A DNA stretch of 16,602 nucleotides from Chloroflexota bacterium (GTDB lineage: Bacteria; Chloroflexota; UBA6077; JADZDV01): the NCBI GenBank assembly GCA_020850915.1, contig JADZDV010000015.1, positions 1-16,602 on the forward strand, read 5' to 3'. Under the pieces are notes generated by a model. That model was not told where the DNA came from and made no database searches. It worked only from the letters and a program-made list of their open reading frames with translations. Positions 380 to 16,602 of this stretch are shown here, piece after piece; the first letter of the stretch is position 1, and every line of letters begins with the position of its first letter. Position numbers and translations under genes: made by a program.

Positions 380-3300
380 TCAGGGCCGCGGCTGGGGCTG
401 GGGCTGGGCGGCGTCCTGGCCGATGAGCCCGGATTGGAGGTGGATCGGGCCGACGGGGAGGGTTTCCACGGTGGCCGTCTGGGGGCCGCTGCTGGGGCGG
501 CGGAGGACAGCGCGCTGGAAACGCTGGACGACGCTATCACCCATGACCACCGGCGTGGAGGCGGGCAGGCCGTAGAGTCGGATGCTGTCCGCTTCGCTCC
601 AGTTCGGGTAGCGGCTGACGTCCGGCGTGGCTCGGTAGAAGCTCTCGATGGCCGGGTCGGTCAGGAGCGCGAGGCGCCCAGTTCGGACCGTGTCCCAGTC
701 GCCGGTCGGCAGTTCGGGCGCCTGGGGCGGGATCTGGAACTGCGAGGTGAGCCAGTCGTCCTTGCCGGCGTCGTGGAGGATGTCAAAGGTGTTGGCCAGG
801 TTGGCCTGGTTGGTGGTCGGGTCCCACTGGAGCAGGGCGCTCTCAGTGGCCTGGTAGATCAGGCCGTCCAGGAGGCTGAAGCGATTAGAGACCGGCACGC
901 CGAGGAGTGGCGAGTCGCCCAGGGCGCGGAAGGCGCTGTAGAAGAACGCGGCAGCGTCGTTCGTGACGGACTGGCCGAGCAGGTGCTGGTCGCGGCGGAC
1001 GGCCGTGCGGGCGAAGAAACGGCCGCCGGAGACCGGGCTGGTCAGCAGGCTCGCGCCGGAGAGGGTGGTGCTATCGCCGCCGGGGGTTGTCCAGAAAACC
1101 GTCTGGTCGTCCTGGACAAGCTGCGCGGCCGGGCCGACGGCGGCCGGATCGCCGGGGTTGAAGGTGAAGGAGCGACCGTCCGCCAGGTCGAAGCCCTGGA
1201 TCGGTGAGCCAGCCGTGCTGGAGCAGCCCTGCCAGCTCACGAGGCTGCCGGAGACGACCGGCGCGGTGATGGTGCGCGCATCCGCGGGCAGCGGCGCCGG
1301 CAGGCCGGTGGCGAGATCCAGGCCGCGGAGGGGGGTGGCCGCGGCGCAGACGCCGTCCTGGGCGGGCTGGAGGTCGAGATGCTCGCGCCAGACGACTAGC
1401 AAGCCGGACAGCGATGGCTGACCTGCAGCGGCGCCCTGGGCGATCGTGGCGGTCTGGCGGCTGTTCAGGTCGAAGGCACGGAGGTCGGCCGGCTGCATGG
1501 TGAGCTCGGCGAGCGAGGCGCCCGCGGCGGCATCCGGCCACTCCGACCAGACGACTGTCGAGCCGGAGATGGTGGGCCAGGCGCGGAAGCCTGGCGCCGA
1601 GGCGACGACGAACCGCTCGCCGCTAGCGAGGTCCGCGGCCCGGACCAGCGTGCCGTCGGTTGTGGTCTCCGTCCAGACGACCACCTGGCCGTCAATGGCC
1701 GGCTGGCCGTAGCGGCCGAGCTGATCGGTGAGCTGCCTGATGTTGCCCGTCGTCAGGTCCTGGATGAGGAGCGTCGAGAGGGCCTGGCCCTGGTCGGAGG
1801 CGGCGCCGGCCTGGCTCTCGAGCCAGACGAGGTTGTTGCCGGAGAGGGCCGGGGCGGTCTGGAAGGTAGAGCCATCAGCACCAGCCTTGAAGTGCTGGCC
1901 TGTTTGGAGCGCCAGGCCATCCAGGCGCGGGCGGCCGCTGGAGAGATCGGACCAGACGACGCGGCCTCCGTTGACGGCGGGGGCGCCGAACACCTGGCCG
2001 CTGGGGACGCGAACGCGGATCAGATCGCGGCTGTCCGCCAGGTGAGGGGCGCTCTCTATGGGGATGCCGAGGCGGTAGAAGACGTCGGGATCGATGCGCT
2101 CGCCGGTGGAGAGGCGCTCGAAGCCGAGGTGGAGGTGCGGGAAGCCCTCGGTACCCTGGGCGCCGAGCATGCCGAGCTTCTGGCCGGCGTTCACGCAGGT
2201 GCCCGTGGTCAGACCGTAGGCGAGGGCATCCATGTGCATGACGCGGGCACGCAGGTCCAGCGAGGCGTTCTCGAGCCAGATGCCGTTGGGACCGCCCGCG
2301 GGATCGGAGGTGAGGACGACGCGGCCGGAGAAGGGAGCGAAGACGGGGCTGCCGCGCCCGTTGTTGGCGGTGCCCGGGATGATGATGTCCCAGGCGAGGT
2401 GCTCGGTGCCCAAGCTCGCCACCCCGCCGGCGCCGCGGATCTCAAGGGCGAGGTCCAGGCCGTAGTCGCCGCGGAAGCCGAAGCTGATGTTCTGCTGCCC
2501 GAGCGGCGCGGCGAGGGGCGAGAGCAGCTTCAGCAGATGGGAGTTGTCTGTGATGGCGCGGTGGTAGTCGAGGGCGGCCTGGAAGCGGCGGACGTACTCG
2601 AAGCCGGTCACGTTGCCGTCGCTGGCGCCGGTCACGTTGCCGGCGCCGTCGATGGCGCCGAAGTAGGCCGCGGCGATCTGGGCTTCCTGGCTGTAGCTGC
2701 GCTGCAGGCGGGCGACCAGCTCGGCGCCCCGGAGCAGGTTGGTGCGGACGTCAAAGGGGTTGTCGCCAGGCTGGAACTTGTCCGGCATGAGCTGCATGAG
2801 GCCCATGGCGCCAGCCGGCGAGACGGCGCGCTCGCCAGAGCCCTCGACGTCGATCAGCGAGGCCATGATGGTCGGATCGGCACCCGCGGCCCTGGCGGCG
2901 GCCTCGATGAGGCTGGAGTAGTAGTTCGAGCCGCTGCACGCGCCCGTCCAGGGGGTGGCGCCGTCCGGCCAGAAGATGGCGCTGGTGGCGGACTCCCAGG
3001 TGCGTGGCTGGCCGATGGCGAGCGGCCTGCCGTTTTGCCTGGCCGCCTGCCTCGCCAACTGGTCCGCCGACAGCGTCGGCTCCGGCGTCGTGATCGGCAC
3101 GGCCTCGAGGGTTGGGATGAGGATTGGCACGGACTGCATGGTCGGCCGCGGTCCGATCGTCGGCGGCGGGGTGGGCACGGTCGGCGTCGCGGTGGCAGTC
3201 GGAGCGACAGGCTTGCTGCTGCTCGAGTGGTTGTTGCTCACGGAGCGGTTGTCGTTGCTGTTGGAGTTGCTGTTGTTAGACTTCGAGCCTGAGCCCTGAC

Positions 3301-3568
3301 TGCCCGAGCTCTGGCCGGGGCTCGGCGTGGCAGTCGGGGGCGGCGGGGCCTTGGTGGGCGTCGGCGCGCCGCCGCGGCTGGAGAGGTTCGACCTGCCGTC
3401 GTTGGGACTGGATGACTGAGCGGCTCTAGGAGTGGGTGTGGGTTGCGAGGGGCTGGCCAGTGCGGGCGCGGACGGCGGAGGCAGCACGGCGAGCGCGGCG
3501 CTGAGCAGGAGACTCAGGCTGGCGAGGCGAATCCAGAAGTGAGATCGCAACGACGACTCCGAAAACAT
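380..3568 (-). CDS. Secreted lytic transglycosylase / M23 peptidase / beta-propeller protein
   Basis: The protein has 1062 residues and probably cuts both the glycan strands and the peptide bridges of peptidoglycan outside the membrane. In order, it shows: a signal peptide (about 1-39: basic start, hydrophobic LASLSLLLSAALAVL, then ALA-S); a Pro/Thr/Ser/Asn-rich linker (40-165); and an SLT-type transglycosylase domain (about 213-340) with candidate catalytic Glu242 in VEGSG and the motif SPAGAMGLMQLMP. Next comes an M23 domain (about 360-500) with HLAWD (H390, D394) and HLH (H478, H480), so its zinc ligands look intact. Repeats of the form 'PAVSG..VVW' (about 520-820) suggest a TolB-like propeller. 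The C-terminal part (about 850-1062) contains LGVPVSNRF and VVQRFQRAVL, a pattern I associate with Chloroflexi secreted proteins. The ATG start fits the signal peptide, though no strong Shine-Dalgarno sequence precedes it. The gene appears monocistronic. Domain identities are firm; the biological target is inferred. Confidence 0.9.
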   Translation of the reverse strand: MFSESSLRSHFWIRLASLSLLLSAALAVLPPPSAPALASPSQPTPTPRAAQSSSPNDGRSNLSSRGGAPTPTKAPPPPTATPSPGQSSGSQGSGSKSNNSNSNSNDNRSVSNNHSSSSKPVAPTATATPTVPTPPPTIGPRPTMQSVPILIPTLEAVPITTPEPTLSADQLARQAARQNGRPLAIGQPRTWESATSAIFWPDGATPWTGACSGSNYYSSLIEAAARAAGADPTIMASLIDVEGSGERAVSPAGAMGLMQLMPDKFQPGDNPFDVRTNLLRGAELVARLQRSYSQEAQIAAAYFGAIDGAGNVTGASDGNVTGFEYVRRFQAALDYHRAITDNSHLLKLLSPLAAPLGQQNISFGFRGDYGLDLALEIRGAGGVASLGTEHLAWDIIIPGTANNGRGSPVFAPFSGRVVLTSDPAGGPNGIWLENASLDLRARVMHMDALAYGLTTGTCVNAGQKLGMLGAQGTEGFPHLHLGFERLSTGERIDPDVFYRLGIPIESAPHLADSRDLIRVRVPSGQVFGAPAVNGGRVVWSDLSSGRPRLDGLALQTGQHFKAGADGSTFQTAPALSGNNLVWLESQAGAASDQGQALSTLLIQDLTTGNIRQLTDQLGRYGQPAIDGQVVVWTETTTDGTLVRAADLASGERFVVASAPGFRAWPTISGSTVVWSEWPDAAAGASLAELTMQPADLRAFDLNSRQTATIAQGAAAGQPSLSGLLVVWREHLDLQPAQDGVCAAATPLRGLDLATGLPAPLPADARTITAPVVSGSLVSWQGCSSTAGSPIQGFDLADGRSFTFNPGDPAAVGPAAQLVQDDQTVFWTTPGGDSTTLSGASLLTSPVSGGRFFARTAVRRDQHLLGQSVTNDAAAFFYSAFRALGDSPLLGVPVSNRFSLLDGLIYQATESALLQWDPTTNQANLANTFDILHDAGKDDWLTSQFQIPPQAPELPTGDWDTVRTGRLALLTDPAIESFYRATPDVSRYPNWSEADSIRLYGLPASTPVVMGDSVVQRFQRAVLRRPSSGPQTATVETLPVGPIHLQSGLIGQDAAQPQPQPRP

Positions 3569-9187: not shown

Positions 9188-10219
9188 TCATGAACCGCTC
9201 GGCCCAGCTCCGAACGTTTCGAACGTCGCCGCGGGATCGTTGGCTGACTGGTGCCCCGCCATGACTACCACGTACCGCAGCAGGTAGCCACCAACCAGTG
9301 TGAGCAGCGAGCCCAGAATCGTTGTCGGCCGTGACGCCCCTTTCCCTCGCACGACGCTCAGCATCCGCGGGGCCAGCGGCGCCAGCAAGCCTATGCCCAG
9401 GACGCCGAAGCGGTAGAGACGACCGAGCGACCCGCGCCGCAGCGGTTGCGCCACCGTCGGACCGAGGGTCGCCTCGTGCCCCAGCAATAGGCTGAGCTCC
9501 ATGATCTGCGCGAAGGTGTCCAGGTTCTCGAGTCGCCGCGGCAAACGCGCGCTGGTCCCCGGCAGCAGCGAGAGCACCAGGGCGATCGCCGCCGCGGCGC
9601 TGGAAACGGCCGAACTGAGGAACAGCGGCCCCATCAGCCTGGCGTTGCGCGTCCAGAACGGCACGGCCGTTGCCGCCAGCAGCACCCCCGTATAGCCGCC
9701 CACAAAGGACGACGGCCCTAGCCCCAGCGTCGCCAGCGCCCGCACCGGCAGCGCCCGGAGCAGCCGCTCCAGCCTCCCGGCCCCCAGCAGCCCGTCCTCT
9801 GCCGCCTGGACGAGCGCCATCAGCGTGCTGAACGCCCCGAACACCGTCAAACCCCAGGTCCCCGCGGACATCGGCGAGCGCAGCTTGAACACTCGCAGCA
9901 TGTTGAGGAACCGCTCCGGTCGTCCCAGGTCCAGGATCAGCAGGAGCGGGCACGGCAGCAGCGTCGCCAGCGAGAGGTAGCGCCCCAGCCGCGCGATCCG
10001 TTTGTTCCCCGGTCCGCCCAGAACGTCCGCGATGTTCGCCACGAGGGAGCTGGCGCTCGACAGCCCGCCCAGGTAGAAGTAGGTGACGATCAGCCACTTC
10101 CAGTGCGGCGCGTGGATCGGCGGCAGGCTGTAATAGCTGTCGCGGGCCTCGTCCCCGGCCGAGCGCGCCCTGTTGCGCTTCGTCTCCCACCGTCGCTCGT
10201 AGGCGCCATCTACGCTCAT
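9188..10219 (-). CDS. NrfD-type membrane subunit of formate dehydrogenase
   Basis: The 343-residue protein is a polytopic membrane protein of the NrfD/PsrC family. It has a cytoplasmic-looking polar start (1-38), the family's first helix after HAPHWKWLIVTYFYLGGLSS (about 37-62), the conserved ILDLGRPERFLNML segment (95-108), and further hydrophobic stretches near 82-95, 120-140, 160-178, 195-210, 250-272 and 300-320. NrfD subunits bind quinone and pass electrons between the membrane pool and a four-cluster ferredoxin-like partner. Here it replaces the b-type cytochrome (FdnI) of E. coli FDH-N. It is the third gene of the operon, 15 bases after fdhB, with GAGG upstream of its ATG. Family clear; direction of electron flow inferred. 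Confidence 0.88.
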   Translation of the reverse strand: MSVDGAYERRWETKRNRARSAGDEARDSYYSLPPIHAPHWKWLIVTYFYLGGLSSASSLVANIADVLGGPGNKRIARLGRYLSLATLLPCPLLLILDLGRPERFLNMLRVFKLRSPMSAGTWGLTVFGAFSTLMALVQAAEDGLLGAGRLERLLRALPVRALATLGLGPSSFVGGYTGVLLAATAVPFWTRNARLMGPLFLSSAVSSAAAAIALVLSLLPGTSARLPRRLENLDTFAQIMELSLLLGHEATLGPTVAQPLRRGSLGRLYRFGVLGIGLLAPLAPRMLSVVRGKGASRPTTILGSLLTLVGGYLLRYVVVMAGHQSANDPAATFETFGAGPSGS

Positions 10220-10234
10220 CGGTCCGCCTCTATG

Positions 10235-11083
10235 TCACCGTTCCCGCAGGGCGAAGACCGCCGCGAGCCCCAGCGCCGCGGCTGCCACGATGGTCGAGAC
10301 GGACGCCCCGAACACCTTGCGTTGCGGCAGCTCCGGCCGGCTCGGCAGGTTGTAGACCTCCGGCGGCGCCGTCAGGATGAAGCAGGCGTTCAGCCCATCG
10401 ATGTCGCCCGTCCCTCCGACGGCTCGATCGCCGTAGATGTACGCTCCGTCCACCCCCCGGATCCGCAGGGTCTCCACCCGCTGCTCCGCCCGCGCCATCA
10501 GCTCCTCGACCGGCCCGAACTGGATCGAGTCGGTTGGACAGGCTTTGGCGCAGGCTGGCTCCAGGCCGTCCTTCAGCCGGTCGTAACAGAGGGTGCACTT
10601 GTGCGCCTTGCCGTCGATCCCGCTCAGGGCGGGCACCCCGAACGGGCAGGCCGGCAGGCAGTAGCCGCAGCCGTTGCAGACGTCCTGCTGGATCACCACC
10701 GTGTCAAACTCGGTCCGCACGATCGCCCCGGTCGGGCAGGCCTGCATGCAGCCCGCGTTCACGCAGTGCTTGCAGACGTCGCTCATCATCAGCCAGTTGC
10801 TCTGGAACGGCTGAAGCGCTTGCGGTCGCCGGCCTTCGTCGTCGGCGATCCGCTCCACGAAGGCGACGTGACGCCAGGTCGCCGCCCCGAGGTCCCCGGT
10901 GTTGTCGTAGCTGAAGCCGGTGAAGCCGACGTTGTCCATCGGCAACTGGTTCCACTGCTTGCAGGCCACCTCGCACGCCTTGCAGCCGATGCAGAGGGTC
11001 GTGTCGGTCAGGAAGCCCATCGCGCCGGTCGTCGCGCCGGTCGTCGCGACGCGGCCGTCCTGGCTCAGCGTCCCGCTGTCCAT
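10235..11083 (-). CDS. Formate dehydrogenase iron-sulfur subunit FdhB
   Basis: The 282-residue protein has sixteen cysteines in four groups, enough for four [4Fe-4S] clusters: C31/34/37/41, C104/107/112/116, C136/139/142/146 and C163/166/178/182. Motifs such as CIGCKACEVACKQWN, CNGCGYCLPACPFG and CTLCYDRLKDGLEPACAKAC are close to E. coli FdnH. A C-terminal hydrophobic helix (about 258-278) resembles the FdnH membrane anchor. It relays electrons from FdhA to the NrfD-type subunit. Its start overlaps the end of fdhA by 19 bases (11065-11083), and AGGAG precedes the ATG, so translation is probably coupled. No export signal is present, as is normal for this subunit. Confidence 0.95.
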   Translation of the reverse strand: MDSGTLSQDGRVATTGATTGAMGFLTDTTLCIGCKACEVACKQWNQLPMDNVGFTGFSYDNTGDLGAATWRHVAFVERIADDEGRRPQALQPFQSNWLMMSDVCKHCVNAGCMQACPTGAIVRTEFDTVVIQQDVCNGCGYCLPACPFGVPALSGIDGKAHKCTLCYDRLKDGLEPACAKACPTDSIQFGPVEELMARAEQRVETLRIRGVDGAYIYGDRAVGGTGDIDGLNACFILTAPPEVYNLPSRPELPQRKVFGASVSTIVAAAALGLAAVFALRER

Positions 11084-14000
11084 GCGGCTCCTCGCCGGCC
11101 GCCAGAGCGGCTCCTTCGAATGGTGCAGGTGAACGACTTCGCCTCGTGGATCCGCGAGTTCGGGTCTTGGATCAGCGCGGCCAGGTCATTCGCGATCGCC
11201 CCCCTCGCCAGGCCGCCGAAGCCGAAGTGCCACGGCATCCCCACCTGGTGGACCGTCCTGCCGTCTACGGTCAGCGGCTGCATCCGGTCCGTCACCAGGG
11301 CGCGCGTCTCCACCTCGGCGCGCAGCGTCGAGACGACCACGTAGTCGCCGTTCTGAATACCGTGCCGGGCCGCCAGCTCCGGGCTGATCTCCACGAACCC
11401 CTCTGGCTGCAGCTCCGCCAGCCACGGTACCCAGCGGCTCATCCCGCCGGCTGTGTGGTGCTCGGTCAACCGATACGTTGTGATGACGTAGGGGAAACGC
11501 TCATCCCCGATCTGGTGGTAGCGGTTGTCGGCGCGCGGAAAGCTGGGCGCCACGGGATTTCGCGTCACCTCCGGGTAGAGCAGGCTCTCCAGCGGCGATT
11601 CCCACGGCTCGTAGTGCGTGGGCAGCGGCCCATCCCGCATGCCTGTCGGCACGAAGAGCCAGCCCTTGCCGTCCGCCTGGCGGACGAACGGTGAGTCGCC
11701 CCGGTGGGCAGCCAGTCCCGTCGCCCCTGGCGGCGGCACATAGTCTGGCGGCTTGGTCCTTGGGAAGTCCGGGACGTCGTGGCCGGTCCACTCTCCCCGC
11801 TCGGCGTCCCACCAGACCCACTGCTTCGCCTCGCTCCACGGCCGGCCGTCTGGTCGCGCGGAGGCGCGGTTGTAGAGAATCCGCCGGTTGCCAGGCCAGG
11901 CGAAGCCCCACTCCAGGCTCGCCCGACCGTCCGACTTGCGCGACCGCGCCAGGTTCTTCCCCGGCTCGGGCATGATCCCGGAGTAGATCCAGCAGCCGCA
12001 GGCGGTCGAGCCGTCGTCCTGGAGCGCTCCGTACCCCTCCACGAGCTGGCGGTCCGCCACCCTGTAGCCGTTGATCTCCGCTACCACCGCCTCCAGGTCC
12101 GGCTCCGCCAGCGGCCCCTTCGTTGGGTAGTCCCAGGTGAGCGCCTCGATCTGGCGCCCTTTCGGGCTGTCGTCCCCCGCGTACAGCTCCTTCAGCCGCT
12201 CGCCCAGGTGGTAGACGAAGTGCGCCTCGGAGCGGCAGTCGCCCGGCGGCTCCACGGCCCGGTCGTGCCATTGCACCAGGCGCTGAGTGTTGGTGAACGA
12301 GCCTTCTTTCTCGGCTGCGATCGCCCCCGGCAGAAAGAAGATCTCCGTCTTGATGTCCTGGGGCTTCACCGTGCCGTCGCGCACCTCCGGCGCGTCGTGC
12401 CAGAAGGCCGCCGTCTCGATGTCGTAGACGTCCCGCACCACCAGCCAGTCGAGCCTGGCCAGTGCCTCGCGCGCCAGCCGGGCATTCTGGCCGCCCACCG
12501 CGGGGTTCATCCCCATGCAGAACAGCCCCTTGATCAGGCCGTCCTTCATGTTCAACACCATCGCCTGGAAGGAGTGGTCGGCGTCGATCTGGGGCAGCAG
12601 GCTGAAGGCAAAGTCGTTCTCCGGCTGTGCCGCCTCCCCGTACCACGCCTTCAGCAGACTGACCAGGTAGTTCGGCAGGTCGTGCCAGATGCCCGTTTCC
12701 AGCTTCTCGAGGCCCAGGAAGCCGGCCAGCGTCGCATGCTGTTCGATCGTCGCGGACGGCATCGGGATGTACCCAGGCAGCAGGTTGTACAGGGTCGGGA
12801 TGTCCGTGCTGCCCTGGATGGTCGAATGGCCGCGCATCGCCATGATCCCGCCGCCCGGCCGGCCGATGTTCCCCAGCAGCAGTTGCAGCAACGCGCACGC
12901 CCCGATCATCTGCGACCCGGTCGTGTGCTGGGTCCACGCCACGGCGTAACAGAAGACGGTCGTTCGCTCCGGGTTCGAGTTGCTGGTGACTGCCTCGGCG
13001 ACCTTCAGGAACAGCTTGCGCGGCACGCCGCACACCCGCTCCACCATCTCCGGCGTGTAGCGGGCGTAGTGCCGCTTGACAATCTGGAACACGCACCGGG
13101 GATCCTGGAGCGTCGGGTCGGTCCTCGTCCCACCCCCGTCCTCGCGGGCGTACTGCCAACTCTCCACATCATAGACGCGCGCCTCAGGTCGGTAACCGGA
13201 GAACAGCCCGCCCAGGTCCTCCGCGTCCCGGTACCGCTCGTCGACGATCGTCGAGGCGTTGGTGTAGTGCTGGACGTACTCCTTGAAGTACTTCTCTTCC
13301 TGGATCGTGTAGTTGATCAGCGCCCCGAGGAGCAGCAGGTCACTGCCGGCCCGCAGCGGCACGTGGACGTCCGCCAGCGCCGACGTCCGCGAGAATCGCG
13401 GGTCGATGTGGATGACGGTTGCGCCGCGCTCTCTGGCTCGCATGACGAAGCGAAACCCGACCGGGTGGGACTCCGCCATGTTGGAGCCCATGATGACGAT
13501 GCAGTCGCTCTCCGCCAGGCTCTGCTGGGTCGAGGTCGCGCCGCCACGCCCGAGCCGCGCGCCCAGACCGGGCACGGTACTGGAGTGTCAAATGCGCGCC
13601 TGGTTCTCCACGGCGACGATCCCCAGCCCCGCGGTGAACAGCTTCTTGATCAGGTAGTTCTCTTCATTGTCCAGCGTGGCTCCGCCCAGATGGCCGATCG
13701 CCAGCGTCCGGTTAACCGGCCGCCCCTGCGCGGTCTGAGTCTGGTAGCTGGCATCGCGCGTCTGCTTCACGAGCTGCGCGATCCGCTCCATCGCCCACTC
13801 GAGCGGCCGCTCCTCCCAGTGGTCGGCGTACGGTGCGCGGTACTTGACCGTCGTCACCCGCGCGGGATTGACCATGAGCCCGTAGGTGGCCGCTCCCTTC
13901 GGACAGAGCGTCCCGCCGTTGATGGGGCTCGCCTCGTTGCCCTCGATGTCGATGACCAGCCCGTCCTGGCTGTACACGAGCTGCGAGCAGCCGACGGCGC

Positions 14001-14130
14001 AGTACGGGCAGACGCTCACGTCCACCTTCACGCCGCGAATCCTGGCGCGTGTCTCGCGAGTCTCCTTGCTGATCGGATTCGGCGTCAGACCCACGTACCG
14101 GCGGATCCCCAGCAGGTCTCCCAGTCCCAT
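11065..14130 (-). CDS. Selenocysteine formate dehydrogenase catalytic subunit FdhA
   Basis: Read through one in-frame UGA, this is a 1021-residue molybdenum/tungsten-bis-MGD enzyme that oxidises formate to CO2. The N-terminal part has the [4Fe-4S] motif CPYCAVGC with C76 in TLCPKGA. The UGA is codon 181 in ENQARI-U-HSSTVPGL, aligning with the selenocysteine of E. coli FdnG/FdoG (NQARVUH). After it come SDCIVIMGSNMAESHPVGFR, RHYARYTPEMVERVCG and MAMRGHSTIQGSTDIPTLYN, all close to FDH-N/O. Length is close to FdnG (1015, from memory). The chosen ATG has GAGGAGG upstream; the frame also extends to 14196. With either start I see no twin-arginine signal, unlike FdnG, so a cytoplasm-facing enzyme is possible. 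It is first in the fdhA-fdhB-nrfD operon. If UGA were not recoded, the enzyme would stop after 180 residues. Confidence 0.93.
13558..13590 (-). promoter_or_regulatory. UGA selenocysteine codon and bacterial SECIS hairpin in fdhA
   Basis: The UGA occupies 13590-13588 on the minus strand. A hairpin starting 14 bases after its first base has a 7-bp stem (CGUGCCC with GGGCGCG, one U-G pair) closing a GGUCU loop, at 13576-13558. The loop lies at bases 22-26 counted from the U of UGA. By my recall of the E. coli fdhF element its GGUCU loop is at the same place, and a U at position 17 is also shared. SelB recognises such a loop to deliver selenocysteyl-tRNA. No selA, selB, selC or selD gene is in the window. 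Confidence 0.85.
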
Positions 14131-14485
14131 CCGATTCGCCTCCTCGCCGCGCGACCACACCCGCGCCCCCGCCGCTCCGGCACGAAATGGACGCAACGCT
14201 CCAGCAGACCACTAGCAGTCGCTATTGTGCCAGCAACCCCACCCCCAGCGCGCCGGCCGAGGCGGCGATCGCCTGGATGGCTCCGCCAGATGAGGCGGGC
14301 GGCTGCTCGGGGCCGGAATCCCGCACGATGCCCGGTTGGTCCAGCGATCTCCGGCGGTCTCCTACAGCATGATCCTTCGCTGGCGCTCAGGGAGACAGGG
14401 GTGCCGCTCTTCACGCTTCCGTCCGTGTACTCTTTGGTCGAAATCCGTCCGGCGTGTCGAGCGGCCGGGCCAACGGGGGGTTGCG
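14131..14485. other. Divergent intergenic region between fdhA and the molybdenum hydroxylase gene
   Basis: This region must carry the promoters of two divergent operons, both encoding molybdenum-cofactor enzymes. I see no convincing -35/-10 pair. It holds a copy of the REP-like repeat (14371-14400) and an in-frame upstream extension of fdhA to 14196. It also contains a very short minus-strand frame of 34 codons (14222-14326, GTG start) ending in a hydrophobic stretch, which I do not call as a gene. Confidence 0.5.
14371..14400 (-). repeat. REP-like repeat copy
   Basis: On the minus strand this reads CCCTGTCTCC, CTGAGCGCC, AGCGAAGGATC. The final 11 bases match the copy at 311-332 exactly, and the CCTGTC and CCTGAG parts match the copy at 181-209. 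Four copies or half-copies in intergenic DNA at both ends of a 16-kb window point to a dispersed family. Confidence 0.5.
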
Positions 14486-16602
14486 ATGCCGCGGTACATC
14501 GGCGTCTCGGTGCGCCGGCCTGACGATGGGCGTCTCGTCACCGGGCGGGGGCGCTACCTGGACGACCTGCGCGTGCCCGGGATGCTCCATCTCGCGTTCA
14601 CCCGGAGCAGTCACGCCCACGCGCGGATTCTGGGTGTGGGTCTCGCCGCGGCACGCGCCGTCCCTGGCGTGGCCGCCGCCTTCTCCGCCGCCGAACTGGG
14701 CGATCTGGGCAACGTCCCCTGCATTCCTTTCCCGGCCGGCACGCCGGCCGCACCCTTTCCCCCCATGGCCCGTGATCGCGTCCGCTTCGTCGGCGACCTG
14801 CTCGCGGGCGTCGCGGCCGAGACGCGTTACCAGGCGGAGGACGGTGCCCGCGCGGTGGTGATCGACTATGATCCACTCCCCGTCGTCACGGACGCCCTGG
14901 CCGCCATTGCCGACGATGCCCCTCAGCTCCACACGTGCGCGCCCGGCAACGTGGCCTATCGTGCCGAGCTGCGCGGCGGCGACGTGGACACCGCCTTCGC
15001 TCGCGCGTCCCGTGTCGTCCGTGCCTCCGCCTACCACAGCCGTCTCGCGGCCATCGCCATGGAGCCGCGCGGCCTGGTCGCGATTCCCCAGGCCGATGGC
15101 GAGCTGCTCGTCTACATCTCTCACCAGGCGCCTCACCTCTTCCGCGCCCAGCTCGCCGACACCCTCGGACTCTCGGAGCACCGCATCCGGGTCGTCGTGC
15201 CGGACGTCGGCGGCGGCTTTGGCGTCAAGACGTTCGCCTATCGCGAGGACATCGTTGCCTGCCGTGTCGCCCTCCTGCTCGATCGCCCGGTCAAGTGGCA
15301 CGCCACACGCATCGAGGACGTTGTCGCCACCAACCAGGCGCGCGACCAGTACGACTGGATCGAGGGTGCCTTCGACCAGCAGAGCCGCCTGCTCGCCATC
15401 CGCACCCGCACCATCGCCAACCTCGGCGCCTACATGTTCGGCCGCGGTGCCCGTCCCCCCATGCGCGTGGCGGAGTACGCCAGCGGCGCCTATCGCGTCG
15501 GCGCCCAGGCCTCGGAAGTGGCCGTCGTCTACACCAACACTGGCCCCACCGCTCCCTACCGCGGAGCTGGCCGCCCTGAGGCCGCCTTCCTCGTCGAGCG
15601 CCTGATGGATACCGCCGCCCGCGAGCTGTCCATCGACCCCATCGAGCTGCGCCAGCGCAACTTCATCCCACCAGACGCCTTCCCCCACCGCACCCCGACC
15701 GGCACGCTCTATGACAGCGGCGACTACCCCCGCCTGCTGGAGACCGCCGTCAAAGCCGCCGACTATGACGCCTGGTGCGACGAGCGCGACCGCCGCCGCG
15801 CGGCCGGCGAGCTCGTCGGCATCGGCGTGGCCACCTTCATTGAGAATACGGCCGACGGCTGGGAGAGCGGCAGCGTCCGCGTCGCCCCGGACGGCTCGGT
15901 CACCGCCATCAGCGGCGCCAACGCGATGGGCCAGGGCATCACCACCGCCCTCGGCCAGATCGTGGCCGAGAAGCTCGGCGTCGAGTTCGAGCGCGTCCGC
16001 GTCCTCGTCGGCGATACCGCCGTTGTGGCAAACGGCGTCGGTAGCGTCGGCAGCCGCAGCACCGCCCTGGCCGGCACGGCCCTGGTTATGGCCTCGGACC
16101 GGGTGATCGAGCAGGCGCTCACCGTCGGCGCGCACCTGCTCGAGGCCCCGCTGGCAGACCTCGAGTACATTGAGGGCGCGGTCCAGGTGAAGGGCGCCCC
16201 GGACCGCGGTGCCAGCCTCAGCCAGCTCGCCCGCGCTGCGCACCCCGGTCTCGGCGGCAGCGTCCCCTTCGAACCGGGCCTGGCGGCCAGCGCCACGTTC
16301 CTCACCGAGGGCGAGGCGATCGCCGCCGGCGCCTACCTCGCCTTCGCCTCCGTCGATCGCGAGACGGGCCGGGTCGCCCTCGAGCGCCTCGTCGCCTGCG
16401 ACGACTCCGGCGTCATCGTCAACCCGATGCTGGCCGAGGCGCAGGTCATGGGCGCCATCGCCCAGGGGGTCGGCGAGGCGCTCGGCGAGCGGCTCGTCTA
16501 CGACGAGGCCGGACAGCTCGTGACTGCCTCCTTGCTGGACTACGCCGTCCCGATCGCCGCCGGCGTCCCAGACGCGACATTGAGCCACCTCGAGACGCCC
16601 AG
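14486..16602 (+). CDS. Xanthine dehydrogenase-family molybdopterin-binding subunit (3' truncated)
   Basis: The frame stays open from ATG 14486 to the window edge: 705 codons, the C-terminus is missing. It starts MPRYIGVSVRRPDDGRLVTG, the usual opening of the large subunit of CoxL/XdhA-type molybdenum hydroxylases, followed by GRYLDDLRVPGMLHLAF and RSSHAHARI. The first part (about 1-115) is the aldehyde oxidase a/b hammerhead domain. The cofactor-binding domain has DVGGGFGVK (240-248), APYRGAGRPEA near 358 and MGQGITTALGQ. It lacks the AYxCSFR loop of form I CO dehydrogenase and has YRGAGR instead, so it probably hydroxylates an aldehyde, purine or other heterocycle. The catalytic Glu expected in a GEGG-type motif lies beyond the window. 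A G-run (GGGGGG) six bases upstream may serve as ribosome-binding site. FAD and [2Fe-2S] subunits would be expected beside it but are not in view. Confidence 0.92.
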   Translation, partial: MPRYIGVSVRRPDDGRLVTGRGRYLDDLRVPGMLHLAFTRSSHAHARILGVGLAAARAVPGVAAAFSAAELGDLGNVPCIPFPAGTPAAPFPPMARDRVRFVGDLLAGVAAETRYQAEDGARAVVIDYDPLPVVTDALAAIADDAPQLHTCAPGNVAYRAELRGGDVDTAFARASRVVRASAYHSRLAAIAMEPRGLVAIPQADGELLVYISHQAPHLFRAQLADTLGLSEHRIRVVVPDVGGGFGVKTFAYREDIVACRVALLLDRPVKWHATRIEDVVATNQARDQYDWIEGAFDQQSRLLAIRTRTIANLGAYMFGRGARPPMRVAEYASGAYRVGAQASEVAVVYTNTGPTAPYRGAGRPEAAFLVERLMDTAARELSIDPIELRQRNFIPPDAFPHRTPTGTLYDSGDYPRLLETAVKAADYDAWCDERDRRRAAGELVGIGVATFIENTADGWESGSVRVAPDGSVTAISGANAMGQGITTALGQIVAEKLGVEFERVRVLVGDTAVVANGVGSVGSRSTALAGTALVMASDRVIEQALTVGAHLLEAPLADLEYIEGAVQVKGAPDRGASLSQLARAAHPGLGGSVPFEPGLAASATFLTEGEAIAAGAYLAFASVDRETGRVALERLVACDDSGVIVNPMLAEAQVMGAIAQGVGEALGERLVYDEAGQLVTASLLDYAVPIAAGVPDATLSHLETP

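Follow-up and report, generated by a model that had tools for sequence, protein, structure and literature searches.

Selenocysteine (Sec) formate dehydrogenases are the closest described counterparts of the locus considered here, and FdhA is given as the most widely distributed bacterial selenoprotein family in PMC13188914. The bacterial SECIS model set out there has an apical loop of 3-9 nt with at least one G in its first two positions, an upper stem of 4-16 bp, a UGA-to-loop distance of 16-37 nt and a minimum free energy (MFE) of at most -7.5 kcal/mol (PMC13188914). Changes from Sec to Cys in FdhA, some of them leaving remnant hairpins, have been described in PMC1794560, and PMC5330540, citing Mukai et al. 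2016, already describes Sec encoded by UAG in Geodermatophilaceae. Within a limited literature search, we found no paper devoted by title to the Sec formate dehydrogenase of Chloroflexi, Sphaerobacter or Thermomicrobia.

The stretch of DNA that we analyzed (the window, 16,602 nt, from a Chloroflexota bacterium) carries on its minus strand, at 11065..14130, a gene for a formate dehydrogenase alpha subunit (fdhA) of about 1021 residues with a single internal UGA. Read from an ATG at 14130, a start picked by eye, and with TGA taken as U, the frame has its only internal stop at codon 181 (13588..13590, minus strand; context ARI-U-HSST), and the next stop is codon 1022, which is itself a TGA. The product scores 1516.8 bits against the NCBIfam profile NF041513 (formate_DH_Act; cut-off 1400) and 1005.8 bits against TIGR01553 (FDH-N alpha; cut-off 814.2), the latter being a score of an N-type alpha subunit. 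It also matches the E. coli FdnG structure 1kqf_A at E=6e-228. In these alignments the UGA column falls on a non-standard residue X in both 1kqf and 1h0h, which we take to be selenocysteine, and the UGA-His of the window corresponds to the X-His of 1kqf, so that the active-site column is followed by His as in N-type enzymes. The two structures retain this His, and 1kqf also retains the RGHS Arg; these are catalytic residues. E. coli fdnG thus belongs to the same family by sequence, and has its Sec column and spacing in common with the window gene.

Two further subunit genes lie on the same strand. One is fdhB (10235..11083, minus strand), an open reading frame for a 4Fe-4S electron-transfer subunit with matches to Fer4_11 (80.3 bits) and to TIGR01582 (FDH-beta; 194.1 bits, under the cut-off of 334.7); provided that it starts at its first listed ATG, it overlaps the 3' end of fdhA by 19 nt. 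The other encodes an NrfD-type membrane anchor subunit (9188..10219, minus strand; PF03916, 117.5 bits, cut-off 25.8), whereas the membrane subunit FdnI of E. coli is a cytochrome b. A second difference concerns export: E. coli FdnG has a Tat signal, whereas none was seen by eye in the window FdhA or in its relatives L002-L005 (L numbers denote the loci compared). With no Tat signal visible, the window FdhA may be a cytoplasm-facing enzyme, although we hold this weakly. The homologue on a T. roseum plasmid (L001) does have a Tat signal, and the pairing at 9188-14130 of a Tat-less FdhA with an NrfD-type anchor, set against the Tat-bearing L001, possibly reflects two orientations within one family. 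Elsewhere, the window encodes a 1062-aa protein with lytic transglycosylase (SLT) and M23 peptidase domains (383-3568, minus strand) and, cut off by the end of the window, the start of a gene of the xanthine or aldehyde dehydrogenase type with molybdopterin binding (14486-16600, plus strand). A 939-aa open reading frame antisense to fdhA (11704-14523, plus strand) probably just mirrors G+C-rich coding sequence.

The internal UGA is followed by a hairpin. Counting the U of UGA as base 1, such that base p is window coordinate 13591-p on the minus strand, bases 15-21 (13576-13570) pair with bases 27-33 (13564-13558) in a 7-bp stem (hairpin 13558..13576, minus strand) around the apical loop GGUCU at bases 22-26 (13565..13569, minus strand). 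The initial annotation had placed codon and hairpin at 13558-13590 with this stem and loop, and its positions are exact. GGTCT occurs 39 times in the window, both strands counted, and the copy in this hairpin is the only one closed by at least six contiguous pairs. When the next 15 codons were resampled under the codon usage of the gene, 0.35% of 200,000 draws contained GGTCT with a stem of 7 bp or more. An Rfam scan of the window returned no match, the hairpin included. Fold stability alone proves nothing here because the DNA is G+C-rich: the 51 nt starting at the UGA have an MFE of -21.3 kcal/mol and no excess of stability over shuffles (z=+0.57). Folding the bases after the UGA, which had been proposed as a check on the hairpin, bore it out in part, since the MFE structure of the 51 nt has a shifted loop register, whereas the centroid contains the 7-bp stem and the MFE structure of bases 14-33, a stretch of our own choice, is the 7-bp hairpin at -12.4 kcal/mol. 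What carries weight here is the comparative evidence.

Measured against the published model, the hairpin of the window falls within the size limits (loop 5 nt, stem 7 bp), has G in the required part of its loop, GGUCU, lies at a UGA-to-loop distance inside the range (18 nt), and passes the energy limit with its -12.4 kcal/mol over bases 14-33, a value that depends on the stretch folded (PMC13188914). The same bases give only -5.7 kcal/mol in E. coli fdhF, the gene of formate dehydrogenase H, and -6.0 kcal/mol in fdnG, that is, true elements miss -7.5. The UGA of fdhF, its GGUCU at bases 22-26, and its U17, G23 and U24 are placed as in the window; its bases 14-33 fold with one unpaired stem base and a 4-nt loop, whereas in the window all 7 bp of the stem are contiguous and the loop has 5 nt, a difference that is real but small. 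The description of the element as E. coli-like holds for loop and spacing and not quite for the stem. The accompanying statement that the bacterial SECIS loop is GGUCU was too narrow: it is true of fdhF, the loop of fdnG, an FDH-N gene, is AGUCU, and the model in PMC13188914 is looser.

We compared the window gene with the best 80 of 594 confirmed stretches from a scan of genome contigs and with one T. roseum plasmid locus, giving 82 genes, none of them dropped, that sample those members of a larger family nearest to the window. At the site, 68 genes in this set from the best 80 of 594 have TGA, one has TAG, 12 have TGC and one has TGT; the alignment of homologues that had been suggested as a check hence yields a stop in 69/82 and Cys, the only other residue in the column, in 13/82, with the stem conserved alongside the stop. 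All 69 stop-bearing genes in the set have their loop at bases 22-26, and it reads GGUCU in 58, AGUCU in six and AGUUU in five. The 11 of 69 with AGUCU or AGUUU, where Ser replaces Gly, are L006, L007, L012, L016, L022, L030, L031, L047, L056, L066 and L068. The contiguous stem of the stop-bearing genes from the best 80 of 594 measures 4 bp in three, 6 in 28, 7 in 36 and 8 in two, and in the same register the 13 Cys genes form 0 bp (nine genes) or 2 bp (four genes). U24 is present in 69/69 stop-bearing and 0/13 Cys genes of this set, the median MFE of bases 14-33 is -11.4 versus -5.3 kcal/mol, and -7.5 kcal/mol or lower is reached by 68/69 and 1/13, respectively. U17, in contrast to U24, is no evidence for a SECIS, because its Val codon gives T in all 82 genes of the set from the best 80 of 594, all 13 Cys genes included.

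The spacing had been thought worth remarking so far from Proteobacteria. All 69 stop-bearing genes in the set from the best 80 of 594 share it, and those that carry a label in the tree come from 12 phyla (the tree gives none to the window, L001 and L035). Such spacing is to be expected; the hairpin sits within conserved coding sequence. Nearer to the window, the Sec FdhA proteins of L002-L005 are 64-75% identical to it and have the same UGA and the same GGUCU loop; their stems change outside the loop, with a U17-U31 mismatch in L004 and L005. L004, the closest relative among the matches listed, has just four contiguous pairs and, at -7.3 kcal/mol, is the lone stop-bearing gene that misses -7.5.

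Covariation was assessed in 52 distinct stop-bearing sequences for a 6-bp structure joining bases 16-21 with bases 27-32. This structure pairs in 99.0% of cells, compared with a mean of 89.6% after shuffling (0/500 shuffles as high, although the shuffles do not preserve kinship) and with 26.6-58.7% when it is slid out of register. The most telling pair is 18-30, which is C-G in 24 sequences, G-C in 21, U-A in four, G-U in two and U-G in one, is never unpaired among the 52, and is formed in 69/69 stop-bearing genes of the set from the best 80 of 594. Base 18 ends a Val codon and base 30 a Gly codon, both at synonymous positions, so the protein does not explain their match. Pairs 19-29 and 20-28 are invariant, and hence uninformative, and pair 17-31 is unpaired in 3/52. 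In a FastTree phylogeny the window FdhA pairs with L004 and forms a clade with L002, L003 and L005 at support 100, the four loci being labelled Chloroflexota or Thermomicrobiota. Only two changes between Sec and Cys are needed on this tree; Fisher tests of hairpin against codon, which ignore kinship, therefore overstate the evidence, and the association rests on about two independent events together with the covariation.

Could the UGA simply be a real stop, with fdhA a pseudogene or a split gene? The sel genes discussed below were seen in the genomes of relatives and those of the window's own genome are deduced from them, which leaves this explanation some room. However, a UGA stands at the same place in 68/82 genes of the set from the best 80 of 594, the hairpin behind it covaries at synonymous positions, and 840 further codons follow the UGA before the frame closes. 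We consider a real stop very unlikely, and read the codon instead as one for selenocysteine.

Such a reading calls for Sec machinery, which we sought in the genomes behind 50 of the 81 loci (stop at the site in 37, Cys in 13) and in 14 controls. Matches to selA over the cut-off were present in 35/37 stop genomes and 3/13 Cys genomes and, among the 14 controls, in E. coli alone. For selB, a bare E-value was useless, as 50/50 genomes and 14/14 controls match; over a curated cut-off, used in its place, selB was found in 28/37 stop genomes and 2/13 Cys genomes. In a search with stricter filters, tRNA-Sec scored at least 57 bits, a cut of our own set at a gap in the score list, in 32/50 genomes (29/37 stop, 3/13 Cys). 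The raw RF01852 tally was not used, as 37/50 genomes but also 5/14 controls exceed the gathering score; many RF01852 matches lie at 47-53 bits beside a stronger match in the same genome, and these are probably serine tRNAs. Stop genomes lacked a match to selA in 2/37 cases, to selB over the cut-off in 9/37 and to tRNA-Sec of at least 57 bits in 8/37, gaps that could stem from incompleteness of the genomes, divergence of the proteins or the strictness of the filters. Among the Cys genomes, selA and tRNA-Sec turned up in the same three. One of these is the genome of L052 (G033, Streptosporangium pseudovulgare; contigs C12 and C6), where a Cys fdhA occurs together with a second fdhA stretch that has one internal TGA and whose contig also carries selA and tRNA-Sec.

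Among the relatives nearest to the window, the genomes of L003 and L004 have selA, selB, tRNA-Sec(UCA) and selD, all matched over cut-off (selD was searched in 11 genomes). The genome of L002 has selA, selB and selD over cut-off and a best tRNA-Sec of 45.8 bits, below the cut-off; in that of L005, selA is present, neither selB nor selD exceeds its cut-off, and the tRNA match reaches just 48.1 bits. The best selD matches in the genomes of L002, L003, L004 and L023 contain one in-frame TGA each, and SelD may thus be a selenoprotein itself. Within the window, none of selA, selB, selC and selD was named among the 12 proteins scanned, and a tRNA scan found no tRNA. Judging from its relatives, the window organism would make selenoproteins with sel genes of its own, as the initial annotation had supposed.

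A natural control is offered by L074, from a Blastococcus metagenome-assembled genome, in which the fdhA site is TAG and the hairpin is kept (L074:431-463). Its genome contains two tRNA-Sec matches, and the one that was read (L118:1497-1592) has the anticodon CUA and the ARAGORN label tRNA-Pyl. Codon and anticodon have changed together, which fits Sec. L074 can be set beside the UAG-coded Sec of Geodermatophilaceae: its FdhA has the same hairpin as the window, with codon UAG and a tRNA-Sec anticodon CUA, in contrast to the UGA of the window. This locus also bears on a changed code, in which UGA would mean Trp or Cys, or on readthrough without Sec. That the genome with the UAG gene has a CUA tRNA-Sec match agrees with Sec rather than with a reassignment of UGA; moreover, fdhA itself terminates in TGA, selA and tRNA-Sec(UCA) occur in the genomes of L003 and L004, and we found no point in support of a changed code, which we regard as extremely improbable. 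A sequencing or assembly error, with TGA in place of the TGC or TGT of a Cys enzyme, might be suggested by Cys being the sole other residue in the column (13/82, set from the best 80 of 594), but the 13 Cys genes lack the U24 and the stem in register that the window has, and TGA also stands in its four nearest relatives among the matches listed (L002-L005), making such an error a negligible prospect. Nonsense mutation, sequencing error and code change were all considered, then, and each was rejected on the evidence against it.

We conclude that the fdhA UGA almost certainly encodes an active-site selenocysteine whose insertion the hairpin would direct. This agrees with the initial annotation, whose proposal of a Sec codon and a SECIS hairpin is supported by the X column of the structures, the loop and spacing in 69/69 stop-bearing genes of the set from the best 80 of 594, the covariation and the sel genes of relatives. 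To the codon, hairpin, conservation, covariation and co-occurrence of sel genes in relatives that we observed, established knowledge would add a mechanism: the elongation factor SelB would bind the SECIS hairpin, with its loop starting 18 nt past the UGA, and bring Sec-tRNA-Sec(UCA) to the UGA, where the ribosome would insert Sec rather than stop. Formate would then be oxidized by FdhA at a Mo or W centre, and electrons would pass from FdhA to FdhB and on to the NrfD-type membrane subunit.

It is tempting to speculate further that the SECIS of this lineage has kept G23 and U24 and lost the unpaired stem base of E. coli, that SelB here reads a different, bulge-free hairpin, and that replacing Sec by Cys erases the hairpin, a combination that we regard as possible but doubtful. 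The hairpin is gone in 13/13 Cys genes of the set from the best 80 of 594, representing about two events; a remnant hairpin in a Cys FdhA from elsewhere is described in PMC1794560.

It had also been predicted that ordinary annotation would break the gene in two. All but two of the 120 best protein matches listed extend over just 66-81% of the query, and the 20 of these 118 that were aligned have nothing upstream of the UGA site, as predicted; the NCBI record of T. roseum, in contrast, gives fdh as a single CDS spanning the stop. The present analysis thus fixes the correct reading of a gene whose relatives mostly stand shortened among the 120 best protein matches listed. It leaves knowledge of selenocysteine insertion unchanged, and the evidence supports a Sec formate dehydrogenase with a standard SECIS, an ordinary and well-known arrangement, here in a Thermomicrobia-like bacterium. 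Covariation at synonymous sites shows that the hairpin is under selection across many phyla.
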